The position numbers and the translations under genes were made by a program. From contig CADBWR010000005.1 of assembly GCA_902798425.1 (NCBI GenBank), positions 76,579 to 140,578 on the forward strand: a stretch of 64,000 nt of DNA. Direction: 5' to 3'. The notes below the pieces were generated by a model. It was not told the DNA's origin. It saw only the letters and a list, made by a program, of their open reading frames with translations, and made no database searches. Positions 11,343 through 53,637 of this stretch are shown here, piece by piece (position 1 is the stretch's first letter; every line of letters starts with the position of its first letter). This DNA comes from an uncultured Bacteroidales bacterium (lineage in GTDB: Bacteria > Bacteroidota > Bacteroidia > Bacteroidales > Bacteroidaceae).

Positions 11343-11387
11343 CAAAGGTAATACTTTAAATTGACAATTGAGAATGGAGGATTGAGA
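11343..11387 (-). promoter_or_regulatory. tRNA-Thr/Gly promoter with heptamer array in place of -33 box
   Basis: TACCTTTG at 11350-11343 on the minus strand, preceded after exactly 9 bases by four heptamers at 11360-11387 (ATTGACA, ATTGAGA, ATGGAGG, ATTGAGA on the plus strand). No TTTG box is present. Confidence 0.65.
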
Positions 11388-11427
11388 ATTAATTCCCGAT
11401 TAACATTTTTTAGCCTTGAAGGAGATG

Positions 11428-14283
11428 TCATAGTTTTTCTTTCAGGAATTTTCCTGTCAAACTCTGTGGGCATGACGCAATTTCTTCAGGTGTACCGGTA
11501 GCAACGACATTGCCACCCCGATCACCTCCTTCTGGCCCCATATCGATGACGTGGTCAGCACATTTGATGACATCCATATTGTGCTCGATGACCAGAATGG
11601 TATGGCCACGCTCGATGAGTGCGTTGAAAGCCTGCAGTAGACGATTGATGTCGTGGAAATGCAGTCCGGTGGTAGGCTCGTCAAAAATAAAGAGGGAGGG
11701 TTCCTGTTTTTCCTGCCCAATGAAGTAAGCCAGTTTGACGCGTTGGTTTTCACCACCAGAGAGGGTTGATGAATTCTGACCGAGTTTGATATATCCCAAT
11801 CCGACATCTTCAAGCGGCTTCAGACGACTGACGATGGTACGGCAAATCGCGGTATTGTCTGCCGCAAAGAAACTAATAGCCTCTGAAATTGTCATGTTGA
11901 GCACATCATCAATATTCTTTTCACGATAGCGTACGTCGAGGATATCATGCTTAAAGCGATGCCCATGACATGCCTCACATTCAAGAACAAGGTCGGCCAT
12001 GAACTGCATCTCGACAGTTATTACACCAGCGCCCTTACATTCATCGCAACGTCCACCATCGGCATTGAATGAGAAATACTGTGCACTAAAGCCCATCTGC
12101 TGCGCCAATGGCTGGTCGGAAAAAAGGTCGCGTATGGCATCGTAGGCCTTGACATAGGTAGCCGGATTGGAACGTGTGGACTTGCCGATAGGATTCTGGT
12201 CGACAAACTCCACATGGCTGATGGCTTGATAGTCGCCCTCCAGTCCGCTGTATTCTCCTGGTGCATCGCACACCTCGCCGAGATGTCGCTTGAGGGCAGG
12301 GTAGAGGATGCCCTTGACGAGACTTGACTTACCACTACCCGAGACACCTGTTACAACGGCCATTACATTGAGTGGGAAATCAACAGTAACGCCTTTAAGA
12401 TTATTCATGCGTGCTGACTTGACTGTAATCTTACGATTCCAGGGGCGACGACCTTTAGGCAGAGCTATCTCGTCCTGGTGGGTAAGATAGCGTAGTGTGT
12501 GACTTTTTTCGGCAGCTGGTGACAGGTGAATAGCAGATGAAACATCGGGTATAGGACCTGCATACATAATTTTTCCACCCAGACGGCCCGCATCGGGACC
12601 TACATCTATGAGGTAATCGGCTGCACGCATAATCTCTTCGTCGTGCTCTACAATGACGACGGTATTTCCGAGGTCGCGCAATTCCTTGAGGACTTTCAGT
12701 AACCTGTCTGTATCACGCTGATGGAGTCCGATGCTGGGCTCATCGAGAATATAGAGTGAGCCAACAAGCGAAGAACCTAACGATGTAGTCAGATTGATAC
12801 GCTGACTCTCACCGCCAGAGAGCGTATTTGACATACGGTTCAGCGTGAGATAGCCCAATCCGACGTCGAGCATAAACTGCAGACGAGTATTGATTTCAGT
12901 AAGCAGCCGCTGACCAATCTGTTGTTCTTGTTCAGTAAGCTCCAATCGTTCAAACCACTCTTTCAGACGGACAATAGGCATTTCTACCAAATCAGAGATG
13001 CTGCGGCCGCCAATCTTTACGTAGTTGGCTTCTGGCTTGAGACGTGTTCCGTGGCATTTGGGACAAGTTGTCTTGCCCCGATAGCGGGATAACATGACGC
13101 GGTACTGAATTTTGTACTGGTTCTCCTTGACCATCTGGAAGAAATCATCGATGGATACACGTTCATACTTCGGGCGATGCTTATCAGAAGGTAGTCCGTG
13201 CCACAGCATGTCTTTCTGTTTCTGTGTCAGATTATAGTATGGCTCGAAAATGGGGAAGCCGACTCCGTCAGCATCGCAGTTTTCTTTTTCTGCTGCACGT
13301 CGGCAGAACTCTTCTTTCCACATGCCCATTTTTTCTCCATGCCAGCATACTACGCAACCATCGTAGACAGACAACGAGGGATTTGGGATGACAAGGTGCT
13401 CGTCTATGCCGATAATCTTGCCGAAGCCTTGACATTCCGTACATGCTCCAATCGGTGAATTGAAGGAGAAGAGGTTGTCTGTAGGCTCCTCAAAAGTAAT
13501 GCCATCGGCCTCAAAACGTACTGAGAAGTCATAGCAGATATTGGAAGGAAGAAACATCAGTCGGCATTCACCGTGGCCTTCATAGAAAGCTGTTTCAGCA
13601 GAGTCTACTAGGCGTGAGATAGCATCTTTGGCATCATCGACAGAGAGCCGGTCGACAACAAGATAAGGAGCCTCCCCATTCCCCTCCGAAGGGAGGGGTG
13701 ACTGAGAGGAGAGGAAGTCGTCAATGCGTATGATGTTGCCACCATAGGTCATACGTATATATCCATTTTGCAGATATACCTTGAGTTGTTGCTCCAGCGT
13801 GCGATTCTCTGACAGATGGATGGGTGCCATAATGACAAATTTCGTGCCTGAGGCATACTGACGGGTACATGCGATGATGTCCTCGGTGGAATGTTTCTTG
13901 ACCTCCTGACCACTGACGGGCGAATAGGTCCGACCAATGCGGGCATAGAGCAGACGCAGATATTCGTATATCTCGGTAGTCGTGCCAACGGTGGAACGCG
14001 GATTGCGCGAGATAACTTTCTGTTCAATGGCGATAGCGGGTGGAATGCCCTTGATAAAGTCGCACTCGGGTTTGTTCATGCGACCCAAAAACTGGCGTGC
14101 ATAAGACGACAGACTTTCCACATAGCGGCGTTGTCCCTCAGCATAGAGGGTGTCAAATGCAAGCGACGACTTACCACTGCCAGACACACCGGCAATAACA
14201 ACCAGTTTGTTGCGTGGTATCTTAACGTCTACATCTTTCAGATTGTTAACGCGTGCTCCTTTAATCTCTATGTAGTCAGTCAT
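11428..14283 (-). CDS. uvrA: Excinuclease ABC subunit A
   Basis: 951 residues from ATG at 14283; the GTG two codons earlier is less likely. It recognises DNA damage in nucleotide excision repair as a dimer with UvrB. Two ABC modules are visible: Walker A GVSGSGKSSLAFDTLY near residue 35 and GVSGSGKSSLVKGILY near 640, and signatures LSGGESQRI and LSGGENQRVKLA. Zinc-finger cysteines lie in CTECQGFG, CPKCHGTR and the CDECKGAG/CEACHGH region. Length fits bacterial UvrA. It is the last gene of the minus-strand run and begins 34 bases after lysA. Confidence 0.97.
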   Translation of the reverse strand: MTDYIEIKGARVNNLKDVDVKIPRNKLVVIAGVSGSGKSSLAFDTLYAEGQRRYVESLSSYARQFLGRMNKPECDFIKGIPPAIAIEQKVISRNPRSTVGTTTEIYEYLRLLYARIGRTYSPVSGQEVKKHSTEDIIACTRQYASGTKFVIMAPIHLSENRTLEQQLKVYLQNGYIRMTYGGNIIRIDDFLSSQSPLPSEGNGEAPYLVVDRLSVDDAKDAISRLVDSAETAFYEGHGECRLMFLPSNICYDFSVRFEADGITFEEPTDNLFSFNSPIGACTECQGFGKIIGIDEHLVIPNPSLSVYDGCVVCWHGEKMGMWKEEFCRRAAEKENCDADGVGFPIFEPYYNLTQKQKDMLWHGLPSDKHRPKYERVSIDDFFQMVKENQYKIQYRVMLSRYRGKTTCPKCHGTRLKPEANYVKIGGRSISDLVEMPIVRLKEWFERLELTEQEQQIGQRLLTEINTRLQFMLDVGLGYLTLNRMSNTLSGGESQRINLTTSLGSSLVGSLYILDEPSIGLHQRDTDRLLKVLKELRDLGNTVVIVEHDEEIMRAADYLIDVGPDAGRLGGKIMYAGPIPDVSSAIHLSPAAEKSHTLRYLTHQDEIALPKGRRPWNRKITVKSARMNNLKGVTVDFPLNVMAVVTGVSGSGKSSLVKGILYPALKRHLGEVCDAPGEYSGLEGDYQAISHVEFVDQNPIGKSTRSNPATYVKAYDAIRDLFSDQPLAQQMGFSAQYFSFNADGGRCDECKGAGVITVEMQFMADLVLECEACHGHRFKHDILDVRYREKNIDDVLNMTISEAISFFAADNTAICRTIVSRLKPLEDVGLGYIKLGQNSSTLSGGENQRVKLAYFIGQEKQEPSLFIFDEPTTGLHFHDINRLLQAFNALIERGHTILVIEHNMDVIKCADHVIDMGPEGGDRGGNVVATGTPEEIASCPQSLTGKFLKEKL

Positions 14284-14316
14284 CTTCACCCTTTGTCTCC
14301 TTCTATCTTTTTTTCC

Positions 14317-15474
14317 TTAAAACTCTTCACTTGTATAGCCTACAGGCAACTGACGACAGTTGTATTGCGAAGCCATAATCTCGCCATAAGCTCCTGCAGA
14401 ACGGATAGCCAGCAGGTCGCCACGATGTGCACGGTTAATATCTATTTGCTTAGCAAAGACATCAGTAGACTCACAGATGGGGCCAACAACATCATAGGCT
14501 TCCATAGGCTCTTCACTGGAAAGGTTCTCAATCTTGTGGTAAGCCTGATAGAGGGCGGGGCGGATGAGGTCGGTAAAGCCAGCATCAACAATGCAGAACT
14601 TCTTAACGTGCCCTTCTTTTATATATAAGGTACGCGTGATGAGCGAGCCACACTGAGCTACTACAGCACGTCCCAACTCGAAATGCAAGGTTTGACCGTT
14701 GCGCAATTTTAACTTCTTTGCATACGTATCGAAATAGGCTTTGAAGTCTGGAATGGGTACACGGTTGGGATGCTGGTAGTCAATACCCAAGCCACCACCC
14801 ACGTTGATATGCTCTACGCTTATGCGGTGGCGCTCCAATTCGTTCTGCAGTTCGTTGACACGATTGCAAAGAGCTTCAAAATCACCCATGTCGAGTATCT
14901 GACTACCAATATGGAAGTGTAAGCCTACCACCTTGACGTTCTTCATCTGCGAGGCTTTTTCAATGACGGTCAGCATGTCGCGCATATCGATACCAAACTT
15001 GTTCTCGGCAAGTCCAGTGGTGATATTAGCATGAGTATGAGCCCCCACATTAGGATTCAGACGGAAAGCTACACGAGCCACCTTGTCCTTGGCAGCAGCC
15101 AATTGGTTGATTACCTCCAACTCGGGGATGCTCTCCACGTTGAAACAGAAAATGTCGTTGTCAAGACCGAGATTAATTTCCCAGTCGCTCTTGCCAACAC
15201 CGGCATAGACAATCTTCTGTTTAGGAAAACCTGCCTTGATACAAGTCTCTATCTCGCCACCACTGACACAGTCAGCGCCTAATCCAGCCTCGCGGATAAT
15301 TTTCAGTACTTTGGGGTTGGCATTAGCCTTAACGGCATAGTGCACGCAAAAGCCCTCATGTTTGCTTACCTCTTGAGTGATGGCGCGAAGCGTCTGGCGA
15401 AGCAGTTCCACATCGTAATAGTAGAAGGGCGTCTGTATGCGTTCCAGTTTTTCTAAAGGAAATATTCCTTTCAT
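14317..15474 (-). CDS. lysA: Diaminopimelate decarboxylase
   Basis: 385 residues. It makes L-lysine from meso-diaminopimelate with pyridoxal phosphate. The PLP lysine is K49 in HYAVKANANP. The glycine-rich phosphate site HINVGGGLGIDY and the C-terminal ICESTDVFAK, with the catalytic cysteine, are present. It follows the aspartokinase gene by 30 bases, so first and last steps of lysine synthesis are made together. It is somewhat shorter than the ~415-residue form, as is common in Bacteroidetes. Confidence 0.95.
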   Translation of the reverse strand: MKGIFPLEKLERIQTPFYYYDVELLRQTLRAITQEVSKHEGFCVHYAVKANANPKVLKIIREAGLGADCVSGGEIETCIKAGFPKQKIVYAGVGKSDWEINLGLDNDIFCFNVESIPELEVINQLAAAKDKVARVAFRLNPNVGAHTHANITTGLAENKFGIDMRDMLTVIEKASQMKNVKVVGLHFHIGSQILDMGDFEALCNRVNELQNELERHRISVEHINVGGGLGIDYQHPNRVPIPDFKAYFDTYAKKLKLRNGQTLHFELGRAVVAQCGSLITRTLYIKEGHVKKFCIVDAGFTDLIRPALYQAYHKIENLSSEEPMEAYDVVGPICESTDVFAKQIDINRAHRGDLLAIRSAGAYGEIMASQYNCRQLPVGYTSEEF

Positions 15475-15504
15475 AGTGATTTGTCTTTGTGTCGGAAAAA
15501 CAAT

Positions 15505-16824
15505 TTATTTGTTGAACAACTCATTGCTAAGAGCCTGCAGTGCACGCTTTTTGTCTTCCTCTTTGATGAGAAAAGAGATGTTGTAGTTACTACCGCCATA
15601 GGATATCATACGTACAGGAATATTCTTCATGGCTTCCAGAACCTGTGTTTCAAATCCGATGTTTGACCAATCCAGGTCACCTACAACGCAGACAACACAC
15701 ATGCCTGTGTCAACAGTTACGGTACCATATTTCTTCAGTTCGTCAACAATCTCACCTAAGTGGGCAGAGTTGTCTATAGACATAGAAACGCCTACCTCAG
15801 AGGTGCATACCATATCGATAGGTGTCTGGTAGGACTCGAAAATTTCGAAGACCTTACGCAGGAAACCTGTGGCCAGCAACATGCGACTTGACTTAATCTT
15901 GATGGCAATGATATTGTCCTTGGCAGCTACTGCCTTGATCTTGCCGTACTCCGTCTTGTTAGAGATAGTCGTACCCTCGGCTTCGGGCTGCATGGTGTTG
16001 AGCAGACGAACAGGAATGCCAGCATACTTAGCGGGTTGTACACAGGTGGGATGCAAAATCTTAGCGCCGAAGTAGGCCAGCTCAGCAGCCTCCTCAAAGT
16101 GCAGCTGGTGTACAGGCTCGGTCTTGTCAACAACGCGGGGATCGTTGTTGTGCATGCCGTCAATGTCTGTCCAAATCTGAATTTCCTCGGCATTAATAGC
16201 TGCACCAATCAGTGATGCAGTATAGTCGGAACCACCACGCTGCAGGTTGTCTATCTCACCATAGGCATTGCGACAGATGAAGCCTTGCGTGATATATACC
16301 TGGTTACCTTCGTTCTTCTCCATGATGGCAGCAAGCTTCTCCTTAATATATACGGGATCGGGTTCAGAGTTCTTGTCTGTACGCATAAAGTCGAGCGCGT
16401 TCAGCAAGACGGCCTTGATGCCTTGTTCCTGCATATAGTTGACAACCATGTTTGTCGACATCATCTCGCCCTGTGCCACGATGCTCTTCTCTTCAAAAGA
16501 GGTGAACAGTTCCTTGGTGAATGAGCGCAGATAATTCATCTCTGAAATCAAGAACTCACGGGTCTGTTCTTTCGTCGCATCCTTGGTGTACAACTCGTCG
16601 ACATGCTTCATGTATTTACGCTCCAACTGGTTGATAACCTCGTTAGCGCCCTCGGGATTCTTCTTGTACAGATAGTCAGAAATCTCCACGAGCGAATTAG
16701 TTGTTCCAGACATTGCCGAAAGAACGACGAAAACGGGTTCTCCAGACTTGGTTACTAAATTGGTTACCTCTTTCATGCGGTCCGGTGTACCAACCGACGT
16801 ACCGCCAAACTTCATTACTTTCAT
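15505..16824 (-). CDS. lysC: Aspartate kinase
   Basis: 439 residues from ATG at 16824. An in-frame extension would read through a heptamer repeat and into ftsE and is rejected. It phosphorylates aspartate at the head of the lysine, threonine and methionine pathway. KFGGTSVG is at residues 4-11. The kinase domain extends to about 290, with QRGGSDYTASLIGAAI and WTDIDGMHNNDPR, followed by paired ACT domains for feedback control. It is monofunctional (no homoserine dehydrogenase part). Confidence 0.95.
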   Translation of the reverse strand: MKVMKFGGTSVGTPDRMKEVTNLVTKSGEPVFVVLSAMSGTTNSLVEISDYLYKKNPEGANEVINQLERKYMKHVDELYTKDATKEQTREFLISEMNYLRSFTKELFTSFEEKSIVAQGEMMSTNMVVNYMQEQGIKAVLLNALDFMRTDKNSEPDPVYIKEKLAAIMEKNEGNQVYITQGFICRNAYGEIDNLQRGGSDYTASLIGAAINAEEIQIWTDIDGMHNNDPRVVDKTEPVHQLHFEEAAELAYFGAKILHPTCVQPAKYAGIPVRLLNTMQPEAEGTTISNKTEYGKIKAVAAKDNIIAIKIKSSRMLLATGFLRKVFEIFESYQTPIDMVCTSEVGVSMSIDNSAHLGEIVDELKKYGTVTVDTGMCVVCVVGDLDWSNIGFETQVLEAMKNIPVRMISYGGSNYNISFLIKEEDKKRALQALSNELFNK

Positions 16825-16844
16825 TGTATCTTTGTTTTTAATTC

Positions 16845-16872
16845 TTAACTCATCACTCTTAACTCTTAACTC
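16845..16872. repeat. Four tandem heptamers between ftsE and lysC
   Basis: TTAACTC, ATCACTC, TTAACTC, TTAACTC on the plus strand. This is the same four-by-seven layout seen at three promoters, but here no TAnnTTTG box is found at the 9-base position. Confidence 0.75.
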
Positions 16873-17629
16873 ATATCGAGAGGTCTTCGCGAGCACTGTA
16901 GTCAACAGTTATCGTCTCGTTTGACTCTTCATCTTCGTAGAGTGCCATTGTGTTGTAGGTCTCTGTGATATCTTCCAAACGGCCGTCAATGCAGCGATAT
17001 ACAATACCCGGATACTCGTTGAGCAATGAAATGTTGTGGGTTGTCATTATAACCGCAGTACCTGTCTGTGTCACCTGACGAAGCAACTGTATGATACTTG
17101 CTGCTGTTTCTGGATCAAGATTGCCGGTTGGTTCGTCGGCAACAATGAGTTTGGGACGATTTAATATGGCACGAGCTATAGCGATGCGCTGCTGTTCGCC
17201 ACCAGAGAGTTCGTGGGGATAACGGTCGATAAACTCCACCATATCCACATCTTCCAGCACGTCATGGATTCGTTCGTCAATCTCATCTTTTTTCTTCCAA
17301 CCAGTAGCCTGCAGTACAAATCTGAGATTCTCATAGACGGTACGATCGCCCAACAACTGGAAATCCTGAAAGATAATACCCATTTGACGTCGTAGTGCAG
17401 GAATGTATTTTTTCTTCAGTTCACGCAAGTCGTGGTTGAGAACAAAGGCATTGTCAGCATTCTCTACATCCATTTCAAAATAGATGGTTTTCAACAGTGA
17501 ACTCTTACCAGAGCCCACCCGTCCTATGACATAGATGAATTCGCCCTCATCAACATGGAAGTCAACATCATGTAGCACGGGAGCACCATCCTTATGGTAT
17601 ATGTCTACCTTCTTGTAATCTATCAGCAT
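16871..17629 (-). CDS. ftsE: FtsE-like cell-division ABC ATPase
   Basis: 252 residues. It has Walker [13 protein letters not shown] near residue 36, Q-loop [15 protein letters not shown], signature [15 protein letters not shown] and Walker [14 protein letters not shown]. The overall reading matches FtsE, which with FtsX controls septal peptidoglycan hydrolases. ftsX is not adjacent. The C terminus is extended by ~25 residues beyond the core. It sits between hisIE and lysC on the same strand; the link with amino-acid genes is positional only. Confidence 0.88.
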
Positions 17630-17677
17630 CTTTATGTTTGGCTATTTGATAATTATCTATTTTTGACAATATGCAGC

Positions 17678-18325
17678 TTATTTCATTTTACCTGCTGCTT
17701 TGGCTTCACGGCGCTGCTTGTCCCAATTGGGATCGTGGCGTTTGTGCAGTTCTTCGGCAACATCCTCGATACGCAAACCTTTGTGGGCCAGCAGTACGAT
17801 GAGGTGATAGAGCAAATCGCTGGCCTCATAGACCAGGTGTTCGTCAGTACCATTGGTTGCCTCGATGACTGTCTCAAGTGCTTCTTCACCTACTTTCTGG
17901 GCAATCTTGTTGACACCTTTGGTGAAAAGACTGGTGGTGTACGACCCCTCAGGCATCTCCTGCTTGCGCCTGTCGATGAACGTCTGCAGTTCAGAGAGGA
18001 AGAGTAGGGGATTGCCCTCGTTCTCCTCGCCCCAACAGGTGTCAGTACCGGTATGACAGGTGGGACCGACGGGATTGACGCGAACCAGCAAGGTATCGTT
18101 GTCGCAGTCAATCTTCATATCAACGAGATTCAGAAAGTGACCGCTGGTCTCTCCCTTCGTCCATAGTGTGTTACGTGTACGACTCCAAAAGGTAACATGC
18201 TTTGTGGCAATAGTCTTCTCATAGGCTTCCTCATTCATGAAACCCAACATCAACACATTTTTTGTCGTTGCATCCTGTATGATGGCAGGCACAAGGCCGC
18301 CCATTTTCTCAAAATCGATAGTCAT
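17678..18325 (-). CDS. hisI: Histidine biosynthesis bifunctional protein HisIE
   Basis: 215 residues. The N-terminal part (1-~105) is phosphoribosyl-AMP cyclohydrolase, with [17 protein letters not shown] and the metal-site [11 protein letters not shown]. The C-terminal part (~115-215) is phosphoribosyl-ATP pyrophosphatase, with [13 protein letters not shown] and the [14 protein letters not shown] helix. Together these are steps 2 and 3 of histidine synthesis. Its start overlaps the hisF stop by four bases, so the two are coupled. Confidence 0.96.
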
Positions 18326-19080
18326 AGTCTAACGTTTATTCCTTCGTTGTGTAAGAATTGTTTTAATTCTGGTATGGGTATCTCGCCAAAGTGGAACACA
18401 GAGGCCGCCAATGCGGCATCGGCATGCCCTTCCGTAAACACATCGCGGAAGTGCTCCTTCTTACCTGCACCACCACTGGCGATAATGGGAATGGACAGCG
18501 TGTCGGCCAACTCGCGCAGGGCCTCGTTGGCATAGCCGTTCTTTGTTCCATCGTGGTTCATTGAGGTAAACAATATCTCTCCGGCACCACGTTCCTGGGC
18601 TTCACGGGCCCACTCGAAAAGACCTCGTTCTGTGCGTTCGCGACCCCCCTTCAGGTAGCAGTGCCAGCCATCTTCATCCAAACGGGCGTCAATGGCGACA
18701 ACACATACCTGACTACCAAAACGGTTGGTAATCTCGTCGATGAGTTCGGGGCGACGGATGGCAGCAGAATTAATGCTCACCTTGTCTGCTCCAGCATAAA
18801 GCAGTCGCTCTACATCCTTCAACTCGTTGATGCCTCCACCAACGGTAAACGGAATATTCAGTGTCTGAGCTACCTTTGTTACCATCTCGGTAAATGTCTT
18901 ACGACCTTCAAACGAGGCGGTGATATCCAGGAAGCACAACTCATCGGCTCCCTGATCAGAATATGCCTTACCTAGCTCTACAGGGTCTCCGGCACTACGC
19001 AGATTCACGAAGTTGATGCCTTTAACGGTCTCACCGTCCTTGACGTCCAGACAGGGTATTATGCGTTTTGCCAGTCCCAT
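18322..19080 (-). CDS. hisF: Imidazole glycerol phosphate synthase, cyclase subunit
   Basis: 252 residues, a TIM barrel. The catalytic aspartates are D11 in IPCLDVKDG and the one in VVAIDARLD. Phosphate-binding loops FTVGGGI and IIASGGAGK are present. It works with HisH to make imidazole glycerol phosphate and AICAR. It overlaps hisA by 22 bases and hisIE by 4. Confidence 0.97.
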
Positions 19081-19781
19081 AGTTCTTGTAGATTAATTTT
19101 ACCTTCATAAATGGCTTTACCGAAGACAACGGCAGGAATGCCGGCGGCATCCAAAGCCTTGATATCGTCGATTGACGACACACCACCACTGGCTATCAGA
19201 TGCAGCTGCGGATAGGTCTCCATTACCTTTTTATAGAGGTCGATAGCTGGCCCAGCCAGCGTACCGTCTTTTGAGATTTCTGTACAGAGAACGTTTCTCA
19301 CGCCTGCATCAATATATTTTTTGAGGAAAGGTAGGAGGTCTTCACTTGAATCCTCTTTCCAGCCATTAATGCTGATGCGTCCGTTGCGAACGTCTGCCCC
19401 AAGGATAATACGCTCAGAACCATATTTGTCGAGCCATCCTAAGAAGCGGTCGGGCTCTGTGACGGCAATACTGCCGATGGTAACCATCGAAGCTCCATGA
19501 TTAAAGGCTATCTCAATGTCATCGTCGGTCTTGATGCCACCACCAAAGTCTACTGTCAGCCTCGTCTCTGCCGTTAACTGGCTAAGAACGTCGCTGTTGA
19601 CAATATGCTTCGATTTGGCACCATCAAGGTCCACCACATGTAACCGCTGATAACCGATACGCTCAAATTCAAGAGCCATGTCCAACGGACTTCCATAGAC
19701 CGTCTTCTGGTCGTAATCACCTTTGGTCAAGCGCACACACTGACCATTGATGATGTCTATTGCGGGAATCAGTTCTATCAT
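19059..19781 (-). CDS. hisA: ProFAR isomerase
   Basis: 240 residues, a TIM barrel related to HisF. It starts with [22 protein letters not shown], where the first catalytic aspartate is in PAID. The second lies in ILGADVRNG. Phosphate loops TVDFGGGI and IASGGVSS are present. It isomerises ProFAR to PRFAR. It is overlapped at both ends by hisH (4 bases) and hisF (22 bases). Confidence 0.96.
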
Positions 19782-20368: not shown

Positions 20369-20374
20369 AATTAA

Positions 20375-20401
20375 GCATTAAGAATTATGCATTAAGAATT
20401 A
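20375..20401. repeat. Duplicated 14-mer between purU and hisH
   Basis: GCATTAAGAATTAT at 20375-20388 is followed directly by a copy at 20389-20401. It fits the 7-base periodicity of the other arrays (2 x 14 = 4 x 7). Confidence 0.6.
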
Positions 20402-21262
20402 ACTAAAGATAATCGTTTTGTTCTTGAAAGTCAGAATCTTACGTTGAATATGCTTCGATACGGCATGCGACAGTACAATTTTCTCCAAATCCTTGCCTTT
20501 CAGTACAAGACTTTCCGGAGTGTCCTTGTGGGTGATTCGTGTCACGTCCTGTTCGATGATGGGACCAGCGTCCAACTCAGCTGTAACATAGTGGCTGGTT
20601 GCTCCGATAATCTTCACACCGCGTTCCCAAGCTTGATGATAGGGCTTGGCACCCACAAATGCGGGCAGGAACGAGTGGTGGATATTGATGATGTGGTTGG
20701 GATAGGCTGCAATCATCTCGTCGGAGATAATCTGCATATAACGGGCCAGTACGATAAAGGTAATATTCTCCTTACGTAATAGTTCCATTTCTTCAGCCTC
20801 CACTTCAGCTTTGTTAGAATGGTCTTTCTTGATACTCCAGACATAGTATGGAATACCAAACTGATCAGCAACATATCGCAAATCTTCGTGGTTAGAGATA
20901 ATGCATGGTATATCGATGTCCCATTCGCCGGCTTTCCAACGGGCCAGCAGGTCGTATAGACAATGACTCATTTTGCTGACAAAAATGGCCATTCGAGGGC
21001 GCTTATCACTAAAATACAGTTTGCACGTCATCTGGTAGCGTTGAGAATACAGCGTATTGATGTATTCCTGGATTTTTTCACGTGGAATCAAGAAATTCTC
21101 CAATTCCCATTCAATACGCATGAAAAACATACCATCTTGTTTGTCGACATATTGGTCAAGGTAGACAATGTTTCCTTGGTTGTCTGTGATAAATCTTGTT
21201 ACCTCTGAAATAATGCCTTGTTGGTCAGGACAGTGCAAAAGCAGAATCGCTGTGGGTTTCAT
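20399..21262 (-). CDS. purU: Formyltetrahydrofolate deformylase
   Basis: 287 residues. The N-terminal ACT domain (CPDQQGIISEVTRFI) spans about residues 1-80. The C-terminal formyl-transferase fold follows, with the N-H-D catalytic set in NIHHSFLPAF and ..SHYVTAELDAGPIIEQD. It hydrolyses 10-formyl-THF to formate and THF, balancing one-carbon units. It ends 31 bases before hisH. HisF produces AICAR, whose recycling uses 10-formyl-THF, so the neighbourhood makes sense. Confidence 0.94.
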   Translation of the reverse strand: MKPTAILLLHCPDQQGIISEVTRFITDNQGNIVYLDQYVDKQDGMFFMRIEWELENFLIPREKIQEYINTLYSQRYQMTCKLYFSDKRPRMAIFVSKMSHCLYDLLARWKAGEWDIDIPCIISNHEDLRYVADQFGIPYYVWSIKKDHSNKAEVEAEEMELLRKENITFIVLARYMQIISDEMIAAYPNHIINIHHSFLPAFVGAKPYHQAWERGVKIIGATSHYVTAELDAGPIIEQDVTRITHKDTPESLVLKGKDLEKIVLSHAVSKHIQRKILTFKNKTIIFS

Positions 21263-22078: not shown

Positions 22079-22107
22079 ATTCTATTTATCATAACACGCA
22101 ACAGGTG

Positions 22108-26651: not shown

Positions 26652-26683
26652 TTTGGTAGATTAAAAAATACTCCGTACCTTTG
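26652..26683 (+). promoter_or_regulatory. tRNA-Lys promoter
   Basis: TTTG at 26652-26655, 20-base spacer, TACCTTTG at 26676-26683. Confidence 0.8.
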
Positions 26684-43209: not shown

Positions 43210-43246
43210 GACAAGAATGCTCATCAAGAGAGCCTGATGGTCTTTC

Positions 43247-43527: not shown

Positions 43528-43536
43528 AGGCTATTG

Positions 43537-44019: not shown

Positions 44020-44022
44020 AAC

Positions 44023-44121: not shown

Positions 44122-44147
44122 CGATATATTTAACATTTAAGTACTAT

Positions 44148-44198
44148 CTTAAAAAGACATAAAAACGATGGTGGTTTGCTCGTTAATTCTTACCTTTG
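44148..44198 (+). promoter_or_regulatory. Promoter of the 177-residue gene with shared 26-bp box
   Basis: CTTAAAAAGAcATAAAAACG plus ATGGTG (44148-44173), 17-base gap, TACCTTTG at 44191-44198. Box and spacing equal those at 36322-36372; only one base differs in 26. Confidence 0.65.
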
Positions 44199-44224
44199 CA
44201 CAAGTAATATAGCAAAGGAAGAGT

Positions 44225-44758: not shown

Positions 44759-44805
44759 CAAAAGATAAACAGACTATAACTGCCCAACAAAGAATTTGTG
44801 ATATC

Positions 44806-45267: not shown

Positions 45268-45310
45268 AAGGTCACCAAAAGAGTCACATCCCTGACATTC
45301 TTATAGTAAC

Positions 45311-46399: not shown

Positions 46400-46421
46400 T
46401 GCAGCAAAGGTGCAAAATAGA

Positions 46422-47228
46422 TTATTTACTTTCTGTTAAGCGCTTGATGTGCTGTTTCAGGATGTAATATGCGGGTTGAGCCATTGCGCCATGGTCGTAG
46501 CCCTGCATTTCGTAAAGCGTTACATCTTTGTGGCCCACCAGTTTCAGCATACGCCAGAAGTAAGCCTGTTCTTCGTAGCGGCCGTAGAGTTCCATTTCCC
46601 TATCTCCAGAAATTATTACGATAGGGGGAGCATCAGGACGAACATAAGTCAGCGGAGCATACTTGTCAATGGTGGGTTGCAGGGGTGCTATGCCTTGCTC
46701 TCTGCGCACATTGTAGTGCGTGATACACTGTCCGCTAAAGGGTACGAGTGCTGCCAGCGAATCGGCATCGACACCATATTTGGAAAGCCAATGCTTGTCG
46801 AGTCCTATCATATCGAGCAAATAGCCGCCAGCAGAGTGGCCTGCAAGAAATATCTTGCGATGGCTGCCGCCGTATTTCTCAATGTTCTTATAGGTCCATG
46901 CCACAGCTGCTGCCACATCGTCAAGAATGTCGTCGATATGCGCCTTGGGCAACAGACGGTAGTTGGCTGCCACAACAACTAATCCACTATTCCTCAGCTG
47001 TGGGTCAATGTGCTTGCTGCCGCCCTCTATACCGCCGCCATGAAACCATACCACTACTGGGGCGTTTTGTTTGTCGGTAGGATAATAGACGTCCAGTTTA
47101 CAGCGCTCCTTGGCATAGGCATCCGTCGACTGTTTGTAGGAGATGTCGTTGATTTGCTGATATTGCGCATGGGCAACACCTGTGCAGAGCACAAATAGTG
47201 AAACGAAAAAAGAAGTTTTTACATTCAT
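46422..47228 (-). CDS. Secreted alpha/beta hydrolase (HSL-type esterase)
   Basis: 268 residues with signal peptide MNVKTSFFVSLFVLCTGVAHAQ. The oxyanion motif VVVWFHGGGIEGG is near residue 58, the nucleophile elbow FLAGHSAGGYL near 125, and the last His is in GYDHGAM. This is the hormone-sensitive-lipase-like or carboxylesterase group, often acting on esterified carbohydrates. Substrate unknown. It precedes the tRNA-Arg terminator. Confidence 0.9.
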   Translation of the reverse strand: MNVKTSFFVSLFVLCTGVAHAQYQQINDISYKQSTDAYAKERCKLDVYYPTDKQNAPVVVWFHGGGIEGGSKHIDPQLRNSGLVVVAANYRLLPKAHIDDILDDVAAAVAWTYKNIEKYGGSHRKIFLAGHSAGGYLLDMIGLDKHWLSKYGVDADSLAALVPFSGQCITHYNVRREQGIAPLQPTIDKYAPLTYVRPDAPPIVIISGDREMELYGRYEEQAYFWRMLKLVGHKDVTLYEMQGYDHGAMAQPAYYILKQHIKRLTESK

Positions 47229-47272
47229 AAGTCTTGTAAGTTAGTATTGATATGTTATAAACTGTTATTATG

Positions 47273-47315
47273 CAAAAAAGAACGCAAGTTCTTGTATTTT
47301 CAAGTGCTTGCGTTC
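47273..47315 (-). terminator. Terminator after tRNA-Arg
   Basis: On the minus strand GAACGCAAG and CTTGCGTTC close a long interrupted stem, followed by TTTTTT. Confidence 0.8.
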
Positions 47316-47324
47316 CTTTCCTTG

Positions 47325-47398
47325 TGATTCCGGCGGGATTCAAACCCACAACCTTCTGATCCGTAGTCAGATGCTCTATTCAGTTGAGCTACGGAACC
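47325..47398 (-). tRNA. tRNA-Arg (anticodon ACG)
   Basis: 74 bases; acceptor GGTTCCG/CGGAATC (with one G-T-type pair), anticodon stem TCTGA/TCAGA, loop CTACGGA. Confidence 0.92.
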
Positions 47399-47462
47399 TC
47401 CTTGGCTCCTCTTTACTCGACTTGCAGTGTTACTGCAGCGGTCGATTTCTGATTTGCGGGTG

Positions 47463-47494
47463 CAAAGGTACGGACTTTTTATGTAACTACCAAA
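47463..47494 (-). promoter_or_regulatory. tRNA-Arg promoter
   Basis: Minus strand: TTTG at 47494-47491, 20-base spacer, TACCTTTG at 47470-47463. Confidence 0.8.
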
Positions 47495-47574
47495 CTTTTT
47501 CGCACTTTTTTTTGAAAAACTTTCTTTTTTGTGCTTTTGTGCGATTTTGTTGGGTGTTTTAAAGAATTATTTCG

Positions 47575-47582
47575 TACCTTTG
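47575..47582 (+). promoter_or_regulatory. -7 box of the susC/susD operon
   Basis: TACCTTTG, 21 bases before the ATG at 47604. A TTTG lies 25 bases upstream, longer than usual. Confidence 0.5.
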
Positions 47583-47603
47583 TGAATACAAAATCTGAGA
47601 TTT

Positions 47604-50264
47604 ATGCGAACACTACTAACCATTCTTGTGTCGTGTGCCCTACTCCACTCTGCTGCCCAGGCCCCCAAAGACTCTACATTGATATCTATTGGCTATGGTA
47701 AAAGCTCGCAGATGATGCTAACCGGGGCCATTGACCAGTTGTCAGAGAGTCAGATGAAAAAGGGACTCATTCTGAATACCCTTGATGTGCTGAATGGCCA
47801 GGCAGCCGGTGTACAAGTTCAGACTGGTGCTAACCAAGAAGCAGCCCTGTCGGCCGTGCGCGTCCGTGGTACGACCTCGCTAACGGGTGGCAACGATCCA
47901 TTGGTAATTATCGATGGAGTACATTGCGACATTATAGCCTTGTCAAGTATCTATCCCTTGGATATTGAGAGTTTCACCATTCTGAAAGATGCTTCCGAGA
48001 CAGCGCAGTATGGTAGCCGCGGAGCTGCCGGTGTTATTATGGTACGCACCAAACGCGGCAGTGAGGGAAAGTTCCACATAGCTTATAATGGCAATATCGG
48101 TTTTGAAAGTGTCTACAAGAACCTCAACATGCTTGATGCCGCAGGTTTCCGCCAGGCAGCAGCAAAGATGGGCGTTAGCTATATTGACAAAGGCTATGAC
48201 ACCGATTTCACCAAGGTCCCTATTCGTACGGGCTATGTCCACAATCATCATATCGCTTTTGGCGGCGGTTCGGAAATAGCCAACTACCGTGCATCCATAG
48301 GCATCATGAATCATCAGACCGTTATACGCAACAATAGTACACGCAACTATTTTGCCAAGCTCGACTTGACGCAGTATGCCTTCGACAAGCATCTGAAGGT
48401 CAGTCTGGGTATGATTGGTTCGCTGCTTAAGAACGAGAACATTGCTAAGGGACAGGAACTGGCCTACTCTGCCGCCACCTTCAACCCCACCTTCCCTGAA
48501 GGACGTAATGCGATGGGAACATACGACAATGTTCCTGAAGCATTGTGGATTAAGAATCCGTCGTCTTTGCTTGATATCAAGGACGACGACAACAATGCCC
48601 ACTTCAATTTCCACTTAAAGACAACCATTGACTTGGGCCGCGGACTCACTTTGACCGGTTTTGGCTCTTATTCCTATAATAATATACATGGCGGTCACTA
48701 CTACCCCACCTATGTCGTCGGCAAGGGCGAAGCATACAGGGTGGACAGTAAGAGCGAGGAGTTGATGGGCAACCTGTCGATAGACTGGAAAAAGACTTTC
48801 GGTTCACATTATATTGAACTCCTTGGCCTCGTTGAGTATAAAGAGAACAGAATCAAAGAGTTCCACACGACAGTAACCGGTTTCTCCAGCGATGCTTTCC
48901 AATATAACAATCTGTCGGCTGGCGCCTCACGTCCATGGGACGGAACTGGTTCCAGCTATATCGACGCCCATACAGAGTCTTTCCTGCTGCGTGCCCAGTA
49001 CTCCTATCAGAAGCGATACACCCTGTCGGTCAATATGCGTGCCGACGCTTCTTCCAAGGTTGGTCGCAACAACCGCTGGGGCTATTTCCCCTCCATCAGT
49101 GCTGCATGGGTGGTCAGCGAAGAGTCTTTCCTGAAGCACCAGCAGTGGCTCAACAAGTTAAAAGTGCGCATAGGCTACGGACGCAGTGGTAGCTTGGGCG
49201 GCATCGGATCCTACATGTCTCACGAACTCTATCAGCCCAACGGCATAGGCATCATTGGCGGCGCTGTGGGTACCACCCTGGGTATTATCCGCAATGCCAA
49301 TCCCGACTTGCGTTGGGAGATTAAGCGGACTTTCAATGTCGGTATTGATATGGCCTTCTGGAACAACCGCATTGCACTGACTGCAGATTTTTACACCTCG
49401 CGCACCAGTGACATGCTGTACAATTATGATGTTCCAGTGCCGCCTTTTGCCTACAACAGGCTGTTGGCCAATATGGGCGAGATGCGCAACCACGGTTTTG
49501 AGTTAGGTTTTGGCATTACCGTGTTGAAAACCAGCGACATGGACCTCAGCTTTAATATGAACTGGAGCTTTGAGCGCAACGAACTCGTCACTCTGAACGG
49601 AGACTATAATGGACAATATCTCACTGCCCCTGCTGTTAAGGGCATCAGCAGTATCTACGGTGCTGGCTACCATGGTGGCAGCGATGTCTGTTACCAGATT
49701 GTAGGCCAGCCGTTAGGCGTGTTCTTATTGCCTCACTTCACGGGCTTCTCCACCGCTGCTGACGGCACCCGCCGCTATGAGGTTACCAAAGAGAAGTATA
49801 TCTGTGGCCAGGCCACTCCCAAAGCCACAATGGGTTCCAATATCGCATTCAGCTACAAGAATTGGGACATTAGCATACAGATGAATGGCGCCTTCGGTCA
49901 CAAGATATTCAATGGTACGGCACTGACCTATATGAATATGGGTTCGCTGCCCAGCTACAACGTGATGGCAGGTGCTCCCGACATGAATATCAAGGACTAT
50001 ACCATCAGCGACTACTGGCTGGAGAATGGCGACTACCTGAACATTGACTATATTACCGTTGGTTGGGATGTCCCCATCCATTCCAAGTATATCCAGCATC
50101 TGCGTCTGTCGTGCTCTGTCAACAACGTAGCAACCATCACCAACTATTCAGGGCTGACCCCCATGATCAACTCCAGTGCTGTCAACAACACGCTGGGACT
50201 TGACGACAAGCGTAACTATCCCGTCTACCGTTCTTATTCACTGGGCATCAATATTCAATTTTGA
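47604..50264 (+). CDS. SusC/RagA-family TonB-dependent outer-membrane transporter
   Basis: 886 residues, short for the family because the usual N-terminal carboxypeptidase-like domain is absent. After the signal peptide (ending AAQA) the plug begins almost at once: VLNGQAAGVQVQTGANQEAA, VRVRGTTSLTGGNDPLVIIDGV, ILKDASETAQYGSRGAAGVI. The barrel follows, ending in an aromatic strand (SLGINIQF). It imports large ligands, usually glycans or peptides, with SusD. No glycosidase neighbours, so ligand unknown. susD starts 9 bases later. Confidence 0.95.
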   Translation: MRTLLTILVSCALLHSAAQAPKDSTLISIGYGKSSQMMLTGAIDQLSESQMKKGLILNTLDVLNGQAAGVQVQTGANQEAALSAVRVRGTTSLTGGNDPLVIIDGVHCDIIALSSIYPLDIESFTILKDASETAQYGSRGAAGVIMVRTKRGSEGKFHIAYNGNIGFESVYKNLNMLDAAGFRQAAAKMGVSYIDKGYDTDFTKVPIRTGYVHNHHIAFGGGSEIANYRASIGIMNHQTVIRNNSTRNYFAKLDLTQYAFDKHLKVSLGMIGSLLKNENIAKGQELAYSAATFNPTFPEGRNAMGTYDNVPEALWIKNPSSLLDIKDDDNNAHFNFHLKTTIDLGRGLTLTGFGSYSYNNIHGGHYYPTYVVGKGEAYRVDSKSEELMGNLSIDWKKTFGSHYIELLGLVEYKENRIKEFHTTVTGFSSDAFQYNNLSAGASRPWDGTGSSYIDAHTESFLLRAQYSYQKRYTLSVNMRADASSKVGRNNRWGYFPSISAAWVVSEESFLKHQQWLNKLKVRIGYGRSGSLGGIGSYMSHELYQPNGIGIIGGAVGTTLGIIRNANPDLRWEIKRTFNVGIDMAFWNNRIALTADFYTSRTSDMLYNYDVPVPPFAYNRLLANMGEMRNHGFELGFGITVLKTSDMDLSFNMNWSFERNELVTLNGDYNGQYLTAPAVKGISSIYGAGYHGGSDVCYQIVGQPLGVFLLPHFTGFSTAADGTRRYEVTKEKYICGQATPKATMGSNIAFSYKNWDISIQMNGAFGHKIFNGTALTYMNMGSLPSYNVMAGAPDMNIKDYTISDYWLENGDYLNIDYITVGWDVPIHSKYIQHLRLSCSVNNVATITNYSGLTPMINSSAVNNTLGLDDKRNYPVYRSYSLGINIQF

Positions 50265-50273
50265 CACACGACT

Positions 50274-51809
50274 ATGAAGAATCTATCCTATATCCTGCTG
50301 GCTCTGCTGTTTACTTCCTGTTCTATGGAAGAAGATCCTCGTGACCAGATACCTGAAGAGGAGATTTACACATCGGCTACAGACCTCTACCGCAACACCA
50401 TTGCAACGCTGTACACCTATGTCGGCGGTGCAGCCGACGGACAAGGGCTGCAAGGCACCTGTCGCGGAGTCTGGGACTTGCAAACCCTTTCCTCTGACGA
50501 GGCGATTGTCCCCACGCGAGGTATTGACTGGTACGATGGTGGGCTGTGGCAGTCGTTTTACAAGCATAGCTGGAATGACGGCAACGAGATTGTTTCTAAT
50601 TCATGGTACTATCTTTATAAAGTTATCACCCTCTGCAACCGTTCACTCGAGACGCTGAAACGCAACAAGGCATTGGCGGGCGACTACTATAACGAATGGC
50701 ACTATGAAATCCGTGCGCTTCGTGCCATGTACTATTGGTACCTCATCGACCTCTTTGGCGATGTTCCCTTGGTGACCTCTACCAACATCTCTATGAACGA
50801 TGTCACACGCGAGAGTCGCAGCAATGTCTTCAAATTCTGTGAAGACGAGTTGAAGGCAGCATTGATTGAAGTCAAATCAACTGCCAGCAACCACATTGGC
50901 GAGTACTACGGACGCATCACCAAGGAAGTCGTCCTCTTCGTGCTGGCCAAACTGATGCTCAATGCCGAAGTGTATACAGGTACGCCCCGTTGGGAAGATT
51001 GTGTGTCCTACTGTGAGCAAAATCACAGGCATCAGTTGGCAACGTATTATTCAAATAATTTTATTATCCATAACGAGAATTCGCCCGAAAACATCTTTGT
51101 CATCCCATTAGACAAAGACCTGATATCCAACCAACAGTGGAATATTCGCCGCTCCCTGCACTACCGCCATGCTGAAGCATGGGGACTTATCGGCGAGAAT
51201 GGCTTCAGTGCTACCCACCGAGTGCTCGATGTCAATGGCTATGATACGGCTGGCAAACAAGATACTCGTTTCTACACCAACTACTACTACGGTACGGTCT
51301 ATGGCCCCAATGGTCAACCCGTTTTGGATCGTCATGGCAATCCGCTGACCTACCGTCCCCGCGAAGTGAAGTTGGACCTTAGTGACTCGCCTTATCTTGA
51401 GACTGCCGGTGCCCGTATGTTCAAGTACTACATCGACCCCAACTCCTACAAGGGGGGTGTATTGGTCGACAACGATATTGTGCTGTTCCGCTATGCTGAC
51501 GTCTTGCTGATGTGGGCAGAGGCCATGCTCCGCTTAGGACGGGATGGTCACATCTATTACGACCGTGTGCGTGAACGTGCATCCATGGAAAAACGTCCTT
51601 ACACCCTCGACAATCTGTACGACGAACGTATGATAGAGCTTGCCTGGGAAGGGTGGCGACGTCAGGACATGATACGCTTTGGACGCTACAAGTCGCTGTA
51701 TGAAGGTCCCGATGCCGTAGATGAAAGCGATGGCCATACCACCATCTTCCCAATTCCCAGCAAAGTGCGTACGCTGAATCCGAAGATTACGCAGAATCTC
51801 GGCTATTAA
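50274..51809 (+). CDS. SusD/RagB-family nutrient-binding lipoprotein
   Basis: 511 residues with lipoprotein signal MKNLSYILLALLFTSC; the acidic SMEED after the cysteine fits the Bacteroidetes surface-export signal. Typical SusD features follow: ALRAMYYWYLIDLFGDVPLVT near residue 145, and a C-terminal DERMIELAWEGWRRQDMIRFG then IPSKVRTLNPKITQN. It forms the lid over the SusC barrel. Its last 23 bases overlap the end of the convergent BrkB-type gene. Confidence 0.95.
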   Translation: MKNLSYILLALLFTSCSMEEDPRDQIPEEEIYTSATDLYRNTIATLYTYVGGAADGQGLQGTCRGVWDLQTLSSDEAIVPTRGIDWYDGGLWQSFYKHSWNDGNEIVSNSWYYLYKVITLCNRSLETLKRNKALAGDYYNEWHYEIRALRAMYYWYLIDLFGDVPLVTSTNISMNDVTRESRSNVFKFCEDELKAALIEVKSTASNHIGEYYGRITKEVVLFVLAKLMLNAEVYTGTPRWEDCVSYCEQNHRHQLATYYSNNFIIHNENSPENIFVIPLDKDLISNQQWNIRRSLHYRHAEAWGLIGENGFSATHRVLDVNGYDTAGKQDTRFYTNYYYGTVYGPNGQPVLDRHGNPLTYRPREVKLDLSDSPYLETAGARMFKYYIDPNSYKGGVLVDNDIVLFRYADVLLMWAEAMLRLGRDGHIYYDRVRERASMEKRPYTLDNLYDERMIELAWEGWRRQDMIRFGRYKSLYEGPDAVDESDGHTTIFPIPSKVRTLNPKITQNLGY

Positions 51810-53142
51810 ACAAGTCTTGCATCTGTATCTGACGCGCGTCACGCAGATAGGTGCTGCGCAGCTCCATAGCCTTGCCCCACTTGTCAGTGAACAACTTGCT
51901 GACATCGAGGTCAATCTTCCACGAGCCATTCGACTCCAAGCGGTCTACCATCGTGCCCACGGTCAGATTCTTGATGTCCTCGGCAGGCATGAAGCGCGAT
52001 GTCTCTCCCTTCTCGTCGCCCGTTATCTCTATGACCAGTCCGGCGGAAATCTGCTCATACAGCAAGTCGTTGACAATACGGATGGGAATGGTTGTCTCTC
52101 TGGTCAGCTCCAGGGCAGTCAGTGGACGCTGCCCCTTGCTAAAACGCTGACAGATGCGACTCAGCAGCAGTGCGTTGAGCAGTATCTTGTAACGATGGCT
52201 TATCTCGCCCGTATTGGCATCGTAGTCGTAGTAGTCCAGATTTTGGTTGGTATAGCATAGCTCGGCACCAAACAGACAGATGGTCCACGAAATCTGCAGC
52301 CATAGCATAAACAGCGGTAGGGCGGCAAACGAACCGTAGATGGCGTTATAGCTGGAGAGAAATATCTGTGAATGGATGTAGAATATCTGCAGTCCCTGCA
52401 TGGCAAAACCGGCTAAGATACCGGGTACCAGAGCGCTGAGGGGCTTCACATGCGTGTTGGGCATGAAGATGTAAAGGGCTATAAACATACCCGACATCAG
52501 CAGGTAAGGTATCAAGTCTATCAGAAAGCGGATGGTTGGTCCCAGCAGCAGAAAGTCCGGCATTGAGTCAGCTATCGTAGCCATAAAGATAGATAGACCC
52601 GACATAATAACAAGAATAATGGGCAAGAGGAAGAACATGGCCAGATAGTCCGTAAACGTACGGAAAATGGAGCGTGGTTTCTTGACCTGCCATATCTCGT
52701 TGAAAGCATCCTCAATATTGCTCACCAGCATGAGCACCGTGTAGAGCATGAAGACAAGGCCGATACCTAAGAATACGCCACTCTTGGTATGCACCAGATA
52801 GCTGTTGACAAAGCCGATGATAACCTCTGCCACTTGGGGCTGCGACTCAAAGGCATCGCGAAACCACACCTCGATATATTTGCTGTAGCCAAACCCCCGT
52901 GCTATGGCAAAGACCACGGCCGTAATGGGTACGATGGCAAGCATGGTGGAATATGTCAGTGCCGAGGCTTTCTGCAGCACTCCTTTCGTGGTAAAGAAAC
53001 GGATGGCCAGCAAGAGTTTCTTGGCTATTTCCAGAAAGAGATATTTGATGGGTGATACCTCGTCGGAACTGATTCGCCAGATGTCGGTCTGAAAGAAACG
53101 AATGGTACGCTGTAGATTGATTTTAGGCATAGACATGTTCAT
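51787..53142 (-). CDS. YihY/BrkB-family membrane protein
   Basis: 451 residues. Six membrane helices in the first ~310 residues carry the family signatures: SALTYSTMLAIVPITAVVFAI near residue 63, YNAIYGSFAALPLFMLWLQISW near 265. A cytosolic C-terminal part (~320-451) resembles a winged-helix segment (ALELTRETTIPIRIVNDLLYEQ). Old annotations call such proteins ribonuclease BN, which is not supported. Function unknown. Starts three bases before the rnpB tail region. Confidence 0.9.
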   Translation of the reverse strand: MNMSMPKINLQRTIRFFQTDIWRISSDEVSPIKYLFLEIAKKLLLAIRFFTTKGVLQKASALTYSTMLAIVPITAVVFAIARGFGYSKYIEVWFRDAFESQPQVAEVIIGFVNSYLVHTKSGVFLGIGLVFMLYTVLMLVSNIEDAFNEIWQVKKPRSIFRTFTDYLAMFFLLPIILVIMSGLSIFMATIADSMPDFLLLGPTIRFLIDLIPYLLMSGMFIALYIFMPNTHVKPLSALVPGILAGFAMQGLQIFYIHSQIFLSSYNAIYGSFAALPLFMLWLQISWTICLFGAELCYTNQNLDYYDYDANTGEISHRYKILLNALLLSRICQRFSKGQRPLTALELTRETTIPIRIVNDLLYEQISAGLVIEITGDEKGETSRFMPAEDIKNLTVGTMVDRLESNGSWKIDLDVSKLFTDKWGKAMELRSTYLRDARQIQMQDLFNSRDSA

Positions 53143-53154
53143 TAAAAAAAAGAA

Positions 53155-53520
53155 AAAAGCACTGCCTCTGTAAGCCGGGTTCTGTACCTCTTACGAGGTG
53201 TCTGCCATTTATCTACTCCGTAGGTTGCCCTACGGCTCAAGCATTCTACCCTCCATCGTTGCTTACGCATCGGACGGACAGCCCTCAAACGATGGTATAC
53301 GCGAACTTGCAGCCTCCAGATGGAACAGCTCGACGATCACCCGCCGACTGGTGGTCTCTTACACCACCTTCTCACCCTTACCCCGTAGGGCGGTCATTCT
53401 CTTCTCCCATATCCAGCTGTCGCCAACTGCTGGCACTTTCACCAGTGGAGTGTCCTGTGCTGCCCGGACTTTCCTCTCGCGCTCCAATGAGCACCAGCGA
53501 CAGACCGAGACACTGCTTTC
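53155..53520 (-). ncRNA. rnpB: RNase P RNA, class A
   Basis: On the minus strand the conserved core GAGGAAAGTCCGGGC lies near the 5' end and ACAGAACCCGGCTTA near the 3' end, which pair into the P4 region. Between them are typical stems (GCCAGCAGTTGGC.. and CCGTAGGGCAACCTACGG). A T run ends the gene. It is the catalytic RNA that matures tRNA 5' ends. Ends are estimated to within about 5 bases. Confidence 0.95.
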
Positions 53521-53526
53521 AGCGTG

Positions 53527-53571
53527 CAAAGGTAACACTTTTAATGAAGAATGAAGAATGAAGAATGAAGA
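53527..53571 (-). promoter_or_regulatory. rnpB promoter with heptamer array in place of -33 box
   Basis: TACCTTTG at 53534-53527; exactly 9 bases upstream begins a perfect array of four ATGAAGA heptamers (53544-53571; TCTTCAT in transcription direction). Confidence 0.75.
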
Positions 53572-53592
53572 ATTTTCTTTGAGGCAGCAAAT

Positions 53593-53637
53593 TTTTCACT
53601 TTTCACTTTTCACTTTTCACTTTTTTTCGTACCTTTG
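53593..53637 (+). promoter_or_regulatory. Upstream valS promoter with heptamer array in place of -33 box
   Basis: Four perfect TTTTCAC heptamers (53593-53620), 9 bases, TACCTTTG at 53630-53637. Confidence 0.75.

Follow-up and report, generated by a model that had tools for sequence, protein, structure and literature searches.

Tandem heptad repeats occupy the place of the -33 box at housekeeping promoters of a Prevotella-like gut bacterium and many relatives

Housekeeping promoters of the sigma-ABfr type in Bacteroidetes carry a TTTG at -33 and a TAnnTTTG at -7. How the sigma factor of this phylum reads the upstream half of the promoter is little known, and genome-wide detection of the -33 motif has proved hard, according to one report (PMC7366714). 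The question of what may stand in for that motif is raised by a 64,000-nucleotide stretch (the window) of contig CADBWR010000005.1, from an uncultured Bacteroidales bacterium whose genome assembly (GCA_902798425.1) comprises 3.12 Mb in 68 contigs. At three promoters in the window, those of the tRNA-Thr/tRNA-Gly genes, of rnpB and of an upstream box before valS, four tandem 7-bp units stop 9 bases 5' of a -7 box (TACCTTTG), and there is no TTTG at spacers of 18-21. Both observations had been made in an earlier examination of the letters without database searches (the sequence-only reading), and both held when the letters were checked. We find that, in this Prevotella-like bacterium of the gut and in many related genomes, heptad repeats at a fixed position occupy the place of the -33 box, which is almost always absent from these promoters.

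The same geometry recurs beyond the window, which supports the fixed geometry of the sequence-only reading. Whole-genome pattern counts, which are free of any bias from the picking of stretches, gave 30 matches to TCAYTYTTCAY-N0-30-TAnnTTTG in the window's genome (with multiple matches per locus and a few at other spacings) vs 0 for the backwards pattern. When 24 genomes were searched for CACTTTTCAC-N0-30-TAnnTTTG, which detects arrays of the TTTTCAC type, 32 distinct boxes were retrieved in four of them, with overlapping matches merged by hand and a second overlapping box (G000:C31:31795) omitted; a control with the box in antisense gave 8 matches. The spacing from the last TCAC or TCAT to these 32 boxes is 9 in 22 cases, 10 in eight, 8 in one and 22 in one. 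Among same-genus genomes, TTCAYTYTTCAYT-N8,9-TAnnTTTG was present in 65 of 150 (backwards control, 1) and CTCAATTCTCAATT-N0-20-TAnnTTTG in 55 of 299 (backwards control, 7). A distance of exactly nine bases is correct for the units as cut at the three window promoters, but it does not stand as a constant, since the value shifts with the choice of unit cut. The feature common to array promoters is a T at multiples of seven upstream of the T of the box's TA. Numbered from that T as 0, the perfect arrays of the window span bases -37 to -10.

Array promoters were compared with array-free ones, an array being defined by at least 17 of 21 period-7 matches. The 71 array promoters gathered at this threshold include divergent pairs counted both ways and a few doubtful boxes, but exclude rows with a score of 16 and two boxes located within arrays. 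They resemble sigma-ABfr promoters in their -7 box and in its placement shortly 5' of genes: 53 of the 71 boxes have an open reading frame (ORF) call within 300 nt, at 14-65 nt in 42 of these, and some of the remaining 18 lead into rnpB or tRNA genes. They differ in being nearly free of TTTG, with about four in-register heptads in its place and no -33 TTTG at a spacer of about 19-21. At N17-22, TTTG is found in only two of the 71 (both with spacer 18) vs 119 of 280 array-free promoters (p = 2e-12), in which it lies mostly at N19-20; a following ORF was a condition for the 280 but not for the 71, and under equal ORF-linked selection the figures are 1/19 vs 119/280.

Orthologous promoters are the stronger test of replacement because the gene is held constant, and in those examined an array and a -33 element never occur together. 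When five such promoters are pooled, nTTG at N18-21 is present in 46 of 56 array-free but none of 11 array-bearing gene-by-genome cases. At nusB, in 21 genomes, CTTG or TTTG lies at N19-20 in 19/19 array-free promoters and in neither of the two array-bearing ones, from the window's genome (G000) and G007. At pckA the element is present in 9/10 array-free (seven TTTG and two GTTG) vs 0/3 array-bearing promoters, and at yidC in 3/6 vs 0/2, where the six include the proximal promoter of the window's own genome, whose upstream array box lay outside the stretch used. The contrast for these three genes together has p = 1.2e-5, the counts omitting genomes in which the 160 bp contained no box, no start was recognised or a contig end interrupted the locus. 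Of the 13 relatives whose tRNA-Thr(cgt) promoter has a box but no array, 11 carry TTTG at N19-21, vs 0/1 with an array; one of these 13 is borderline, with a period-7 score of 14, three more genomes are boxless and two remoter boxes were left uncounted. At rnpB, for which 11 loci were recognised by a probe, the corresponding figures for nTTG are 4/8 and 0/3. Replacement of the -33 box, which the sequence-only reading had proposed, is well supported by the pattern counts, the TTTG contrast and the orthologous promoters, as is the observation of the arrays itself. Between species, these orthologous promoters differ in the sequence of the repeat. The rnpB arrays of three species are built of TCTTCAT, TTTTCAC and ATTATGA-like heptads, and those of pckA of TTCTCAA, CTTTTCT-like and AATTCAC (about two and a half copies), while the two nusB arrays are both of the TTCAC type, with differing units.

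The different heptads share one register with respect to the -7 box. The majority base at -14, -21, -28 and -35 is T in 69 of the 71 array promoters. With one representative taken for each of 26 heptad classes, T falls in phase 0 for 24, a value reached by 0 of 100,000 random-phase draws, although this figure overstates the case because most of the classes are one-base variants of each other; we therefore rejected their independence. For the heptad CTCAATT, the register predicts a T at -14, and this prediction was written down before the output of the search was seen. The T was found in 60 of 66 boxes within 13 bases of the heptad and in 17 of 21 boxes beyond. In genomes outside the derivation set it was found in 53 of 59 (expected 3/7, p = 5e-14), a p value that is too small because CTCAATT boxes may have a common ancestry; it is also possible that some named loci used for the derivation belong to genomes that bear G handles as well. 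The gap between CTCAATT and the near box is commonly 8 (39 boxes) or 6 (18) and rarely 7 (6), with 12 (1) and 13 (2) also present; gaps of 0-5 and 9-11 are missing among the 66.

The composition of array-free promoters suggests how such a repeat might work. In G000, G007 and G022, T has a frequency of 0.59-0.60 at each of -16, -15 and -14 and of 0.54-0.67 at -24 to -22, where it is followed by G at -21 or -20. These array-free promoters have two T-rich blocks 5' of the -7 box: the first is in the spacer, at -16 to -14, and the T's of TTTG form the second (-24 to -21). Because the two are seven to eight bases apart, a heptad repeat in register would supply both, repeating the T-block at -16/-14, -23/-21, -30/-28 and -37/-35. 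Judging from base composition, RNA polymerase could contact the T's of the array equivalently, and the G of TTTG could be dispensed with. On balance we lean towards this interpretation, i.e. that array promoters are sigma-ABfr housekeeping promoters in which a tandem array of about four AT-rich heptads would form the upstream half, acting via T-blocks seven bases apart. Its broader form, in which a heptad of any sequence would do in place of the -33 box provided that its T's were in register, with the heptad turning over between species and the register alone conserved, is a tentative extension to which we give slightly less than even credence. If true, the promoter code would be based on repeat phase and not on a consensus box, and simple-sequence repeats would be a general and reused route to housekeeping promoters in Prevotella and its kin. 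The data suggest that, within a single genus, repeats have replaced a regulatory element on several occasions. Array promoters offer a natural experiment, in which orthologous genes have either a box or an in-register repeat, and they predict which positions polymerase needs, namely the T's at -14 to -16 and -21 to -23. Many array-free promoters of the same three genomes, whether or not they carry TTTG, have C or G at -13 directly after the T-block of -16 to -14, and this combination could be a spacer element that has gone unrecognised.

Arrays are far from confined to promoters. A 464-kb sample of the window's genome contains 55 period-7 arrays vs 0 in random sequence of the same dinucleotide frequencies (one control per stretch), and the commonest period among 4 to 21 is 7, followed by its multiples 14 and 21. 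In 845,545 bases of this genome there are 93 arrays, of which, by a crude method of ORF calling, 29 lie in ORF calls, 27 (purine-rich in the sense direction) and 5 (pyrimidine-rich) within 20 nt of a start codon, and 32 elsewhere. Arrays outside these calls amount to 64/93 in G000 and 33/48 in G007, but only 14/47 in G022. In the 400 kb sampled of G016, which belongs to the same genus and is assembled as one contig, arrays occur at about a quarter of the frequency and none lies upstream of a box. Array frequencies in G007 and in some G000 and G022 stretches are biased, because these stretches were picked where earlier hits lay. The arrays thus consist of contiguous 7-bp units beyond chance expectation, mainly intergenic, and in this they resemble the bacterial heptanucleotide simple sequence repeats of Mrazek et al. 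(2007), for which PMC4679880 is the source here and which have few copies, are often intergenic and in many cases abut start codons. That paper features TAACTGA in Beggiatoaceae and suggests a translational role for it; the present case differs in having many heptads per genome and a subset that stands in a fixed register to a -7 box in place of a promoter element. Promoter arrays would be drawn from this large genomic supply, for whose origin slippage is the published idea, and probably also from copying between loci; arrays in register would be retained at promoters, others sitting in gene gaps and leaders. No account of heptad arrays replacing a -33 box was found among the literature matches listed, in a search that left preprints and most subscription papers outside. 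A large class of arrays abuts start codons in gene gaps, mostly purine-rich in the sense of the gene (L006, L009, L016, L019, L021 and others, and window 16838-16878), and looks as if used for unstructured leader DNA.

The sequence-only reading further held that copy-number change by slippage would alter the expression of translation-related genes, and neither part fared well. By strict count, box-side arrays have three, four or five copies in 1, 11 and 1 cases in G007 and in 5, 9 and 4 in G000. Arrays away from boxes also peak at three to four (Mann-Whitney p = 0.70, 34 vs 107 arrays), so four copies are not specific to promoters; we rejected copy number as a promoter signal, and tuning by slippage is unsupported. 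Arrays of at least six units number 0/34 at promoters vs 10/107 elsewhere, a difference that is suggestive only. As for the genes, array boxes in the window's genome lead nusB, yidC, pckA, pta, L28, nagB, a TrpB-like gene, truA and NAD kinase, and those in G007 lead pyrE, purB, S15, fba and a YicC-family gene. All those named exceed curated family cut-offs; 20 proteins, ValS included, of the 53 array-box ORFs were searched, of which two matched no family and three only below cut-offs. The presence of pckA, pta, nagB, NAD kinase, purB, pyrE and fba makes "translation-related" too narrow, and a translation regulon was rejected on this list: the genes behind array boxes are general housekeeping genes.

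Several observations weigh against the reading of arrays as T-block promoters, and some of them would also fit the arrays being functionless filler that invades upstream DNA where the -33 box is weakly needed, with only loose T-richness selected. As many as 161 of the 280 array-free promoters likewise have no exact TTTG, so the -33 box may be dispensable. Arrays are plentiful elsewhere, their copy number is not promoter-specific, and those with a TAnnTTTG within 40 bp downstream on the pyrimidine-rich strand are a minority (15/93 in G000, 17/48 in G007 and 4/47 in G022; on the other strand 6, 3 and 0). The register argument also weakens once related heptads are merged: when only heptads that differ by more than one base are kept, 11/13 have T at phase 0 (p = 0.010), and with a difference of more than two bases 4/5 do (p = 0.58). 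Six of the 66 near CTCAATT boxes violate the rule, and their possible common ancestry has been mentioned. In addition, arrays have T at -21, where canonical promoters mostly have G, which makes the resemblance one to the T-blocks and not to TTTG, and copying explains part of the likeness among arrays, because some of them, boxed and boxless alike, share a GCGNNAGCAAAT flank. What filler would not lead one to expect is a single register in 69 of 71 promoters and again in other genomes, the avoidance of CTCAATT gaps of 0-5 and 9-11, and the retention of the -33 element at nusB in all 19 array-free species. We consider this explanation unlikely, while granting it real weight.

The fixed distance from the -7 box and the relatedness of most heptads could also reflect an operator, on which a lineage-specific DNA-binding protein sits side by side and recruits RNA polymerase. 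There is a precedent in the SARP-type regulators of Streptomyces, which use direct heptameric repeats in the promoter region, as PMC5930380 describes; SARP sites are spaced with an 11-bp period and follow one consensus, whereas the arrays here are contiguous, with a 7-bp period and several sequences in 26 mostly related classes. Contiguous 7-bp steps would place adjacent sites on different faces of the helix. Moreover, heptads as unlike as TTTTCAC, TTATGAA and CTCCTAA share the register, and the named genes are a mixed housekeeping set. An operator thus appears improbable to us. Common descent would account for the geometry if an array-plus-box cassette had spread by transposition or ectopic gene conversion, and there are signs of such movement. 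Over 176 columns, the valS segment matches the region upstream of yidC at 95.5% identity, and the constant GCGNNAGCAAAT flank accompanies many arrays, some of them boxless. Porphyromonas gingivalis, of the same order (Bacteroidales), offers a parallel. Its BrickBuilt element, a repeat-bearing miniature inverted-repeat transposable element with promoter activity, likewise has a tandem repeat in a dispersed intergenic unit with promoter elements (PMC4596501), and is unlike the 7-nt units here in its 23-nt repeat and inverted-repeat ends. A cassette does not explain different heptads in one register; the rnpB and pckA orthologues carry species-specific heptads, the two nusB arrays are of the same type but not identical, and beyond about -44 to +9 the promoter sequences are mostly unrelated by eye. 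We regard this explanation as very improbable.

Within the window (Table 1), the units of the tRNA-Thr/tRNA-Gly array are only about 80% alike. This promoter is an exception among the tRNA promoters of the window, because the other boxes, at 26676 (tRNA-Lys), 47470 (tRNA-Arg) and 11001 (167 bp 5' of tRNA-Glu), use TTTG-N20. At valS, the array box is followed, 98 bp downstream and ahead of the ATG at 53758, by a canonical promoter. This rules out the array as the sole valS promoter; it marks an extra upstream box. Two further arrays pointed out in the sequence-only reading (16845-16872 and 20375-20401) do exist, and neither replaces a -33 element. Among the matches listed, the best ValS relative is that of the uncultured Prevotellaceae isolate RUG443 (94% identity), where RUG presumably stands for rumen genomes.

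Table 1. Coordinates of arrays, -7 boxes, genes and dispersed repeats (window positions unless a genome handle is given)
Feature	Position	Strand	Remarks
tRNA-Gly(ccc)	11095-11168	-	ARAGORN, Rfam
tRNA-Thr(cgt)	11234-11307	-	ARAGORN, Rfam
-7 box TACCTTTG of tRNA-Thr(cgt)/tRNA-Gly(ccc)	11343-11350	-	no TTTG at spacer 18-21
tRNA-Thr/Gly array, imperfect 4 x 7	11360-11387	-	TCTCAAT/CCTCCAT/TCTCAAT/TGTCAAT in transcription sense; period-7 matches 17/21
Heptad array, leader class	16838-16878	not assigned	purine-rich in gene sense; 18 nt 5' of a - strand ATG
Heptad/14-mer array	20369-20402	not assigned	short gap between two - strand ORFs, abutting ATG
rnpB (RNase P RNA class A)	53155-53516	-	Rfam RF00010, 200.4 bits
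-7 box TACCTTTG of rnpB	53527-53534	-	no TTTG
rnpB promoter array, perfect 4 x TCTTCAT	53544-53571	-	units in transcription sense
Dispersed-repeat segment, array included	53574-53748	+	95.5% identity over 176 aligned columns to yidC upstream stretch
Array of upstream valS box, perfect 4 x TTTTCAC	53593-53620	+	left flank GGCAGCAAAT
Upstream valS -7 box TACCTTTG	53630-53637	+	9 bases past array; no TTTG
Canonical valS promoter	TTTG 53704-53707, N20, TACCTTTG 53728-53735	+	
valS	53758-56466	+	NF004349/TIGR00422
About 100-bp dispersed repeat	53630-53737		
About 100-bp dispersed repeat	63239-63299	-	
About 100-bp dispersed repeat	G000:C42, C20, C6, C8, C31, C10		

The valS/yidC pair lies within one genome (the copy upstream of yidC at L134:1501-1676). 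Its likeness suggests ectopic copying of a promoter region, and copying between loci is the probable origin of part of the valS region. Several sites of the window's genome have all or part of a dispersed repeat, some 100 bp long, which contains two -7 boxes and, between them, a short inverted repeat and TTTGGTTTTTCGCTCACTTATTCG; L030 and L074 have diverged-looking forms of it. The GCGNNAGCAAAT flank occurs at the pyrimidine-strand 5' end of a subset of arrays, with or without a box (L012:5470, L011:17746, L022 (-) 8218, L209:17216 and L222 (-) 2108), and resembles the d(GCGNNAGC) mini-hairpin motif. Since GCGNNAGC lies left of only 4/93, 7/48 and 5/47 arrays in the three genomes, it was rejected as a general part of the arrays and is the mark of a subfamily. 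At L110, 5' of valS, facing arrays of the GGAGTTA and then the CTCCTAA type lie just upstream of the -7 box and could form a long hairpin. Past the valS gene of the window, at 56601-56698, there is a 43-bp tandem repeat of 2.3 copies with 94% matches.

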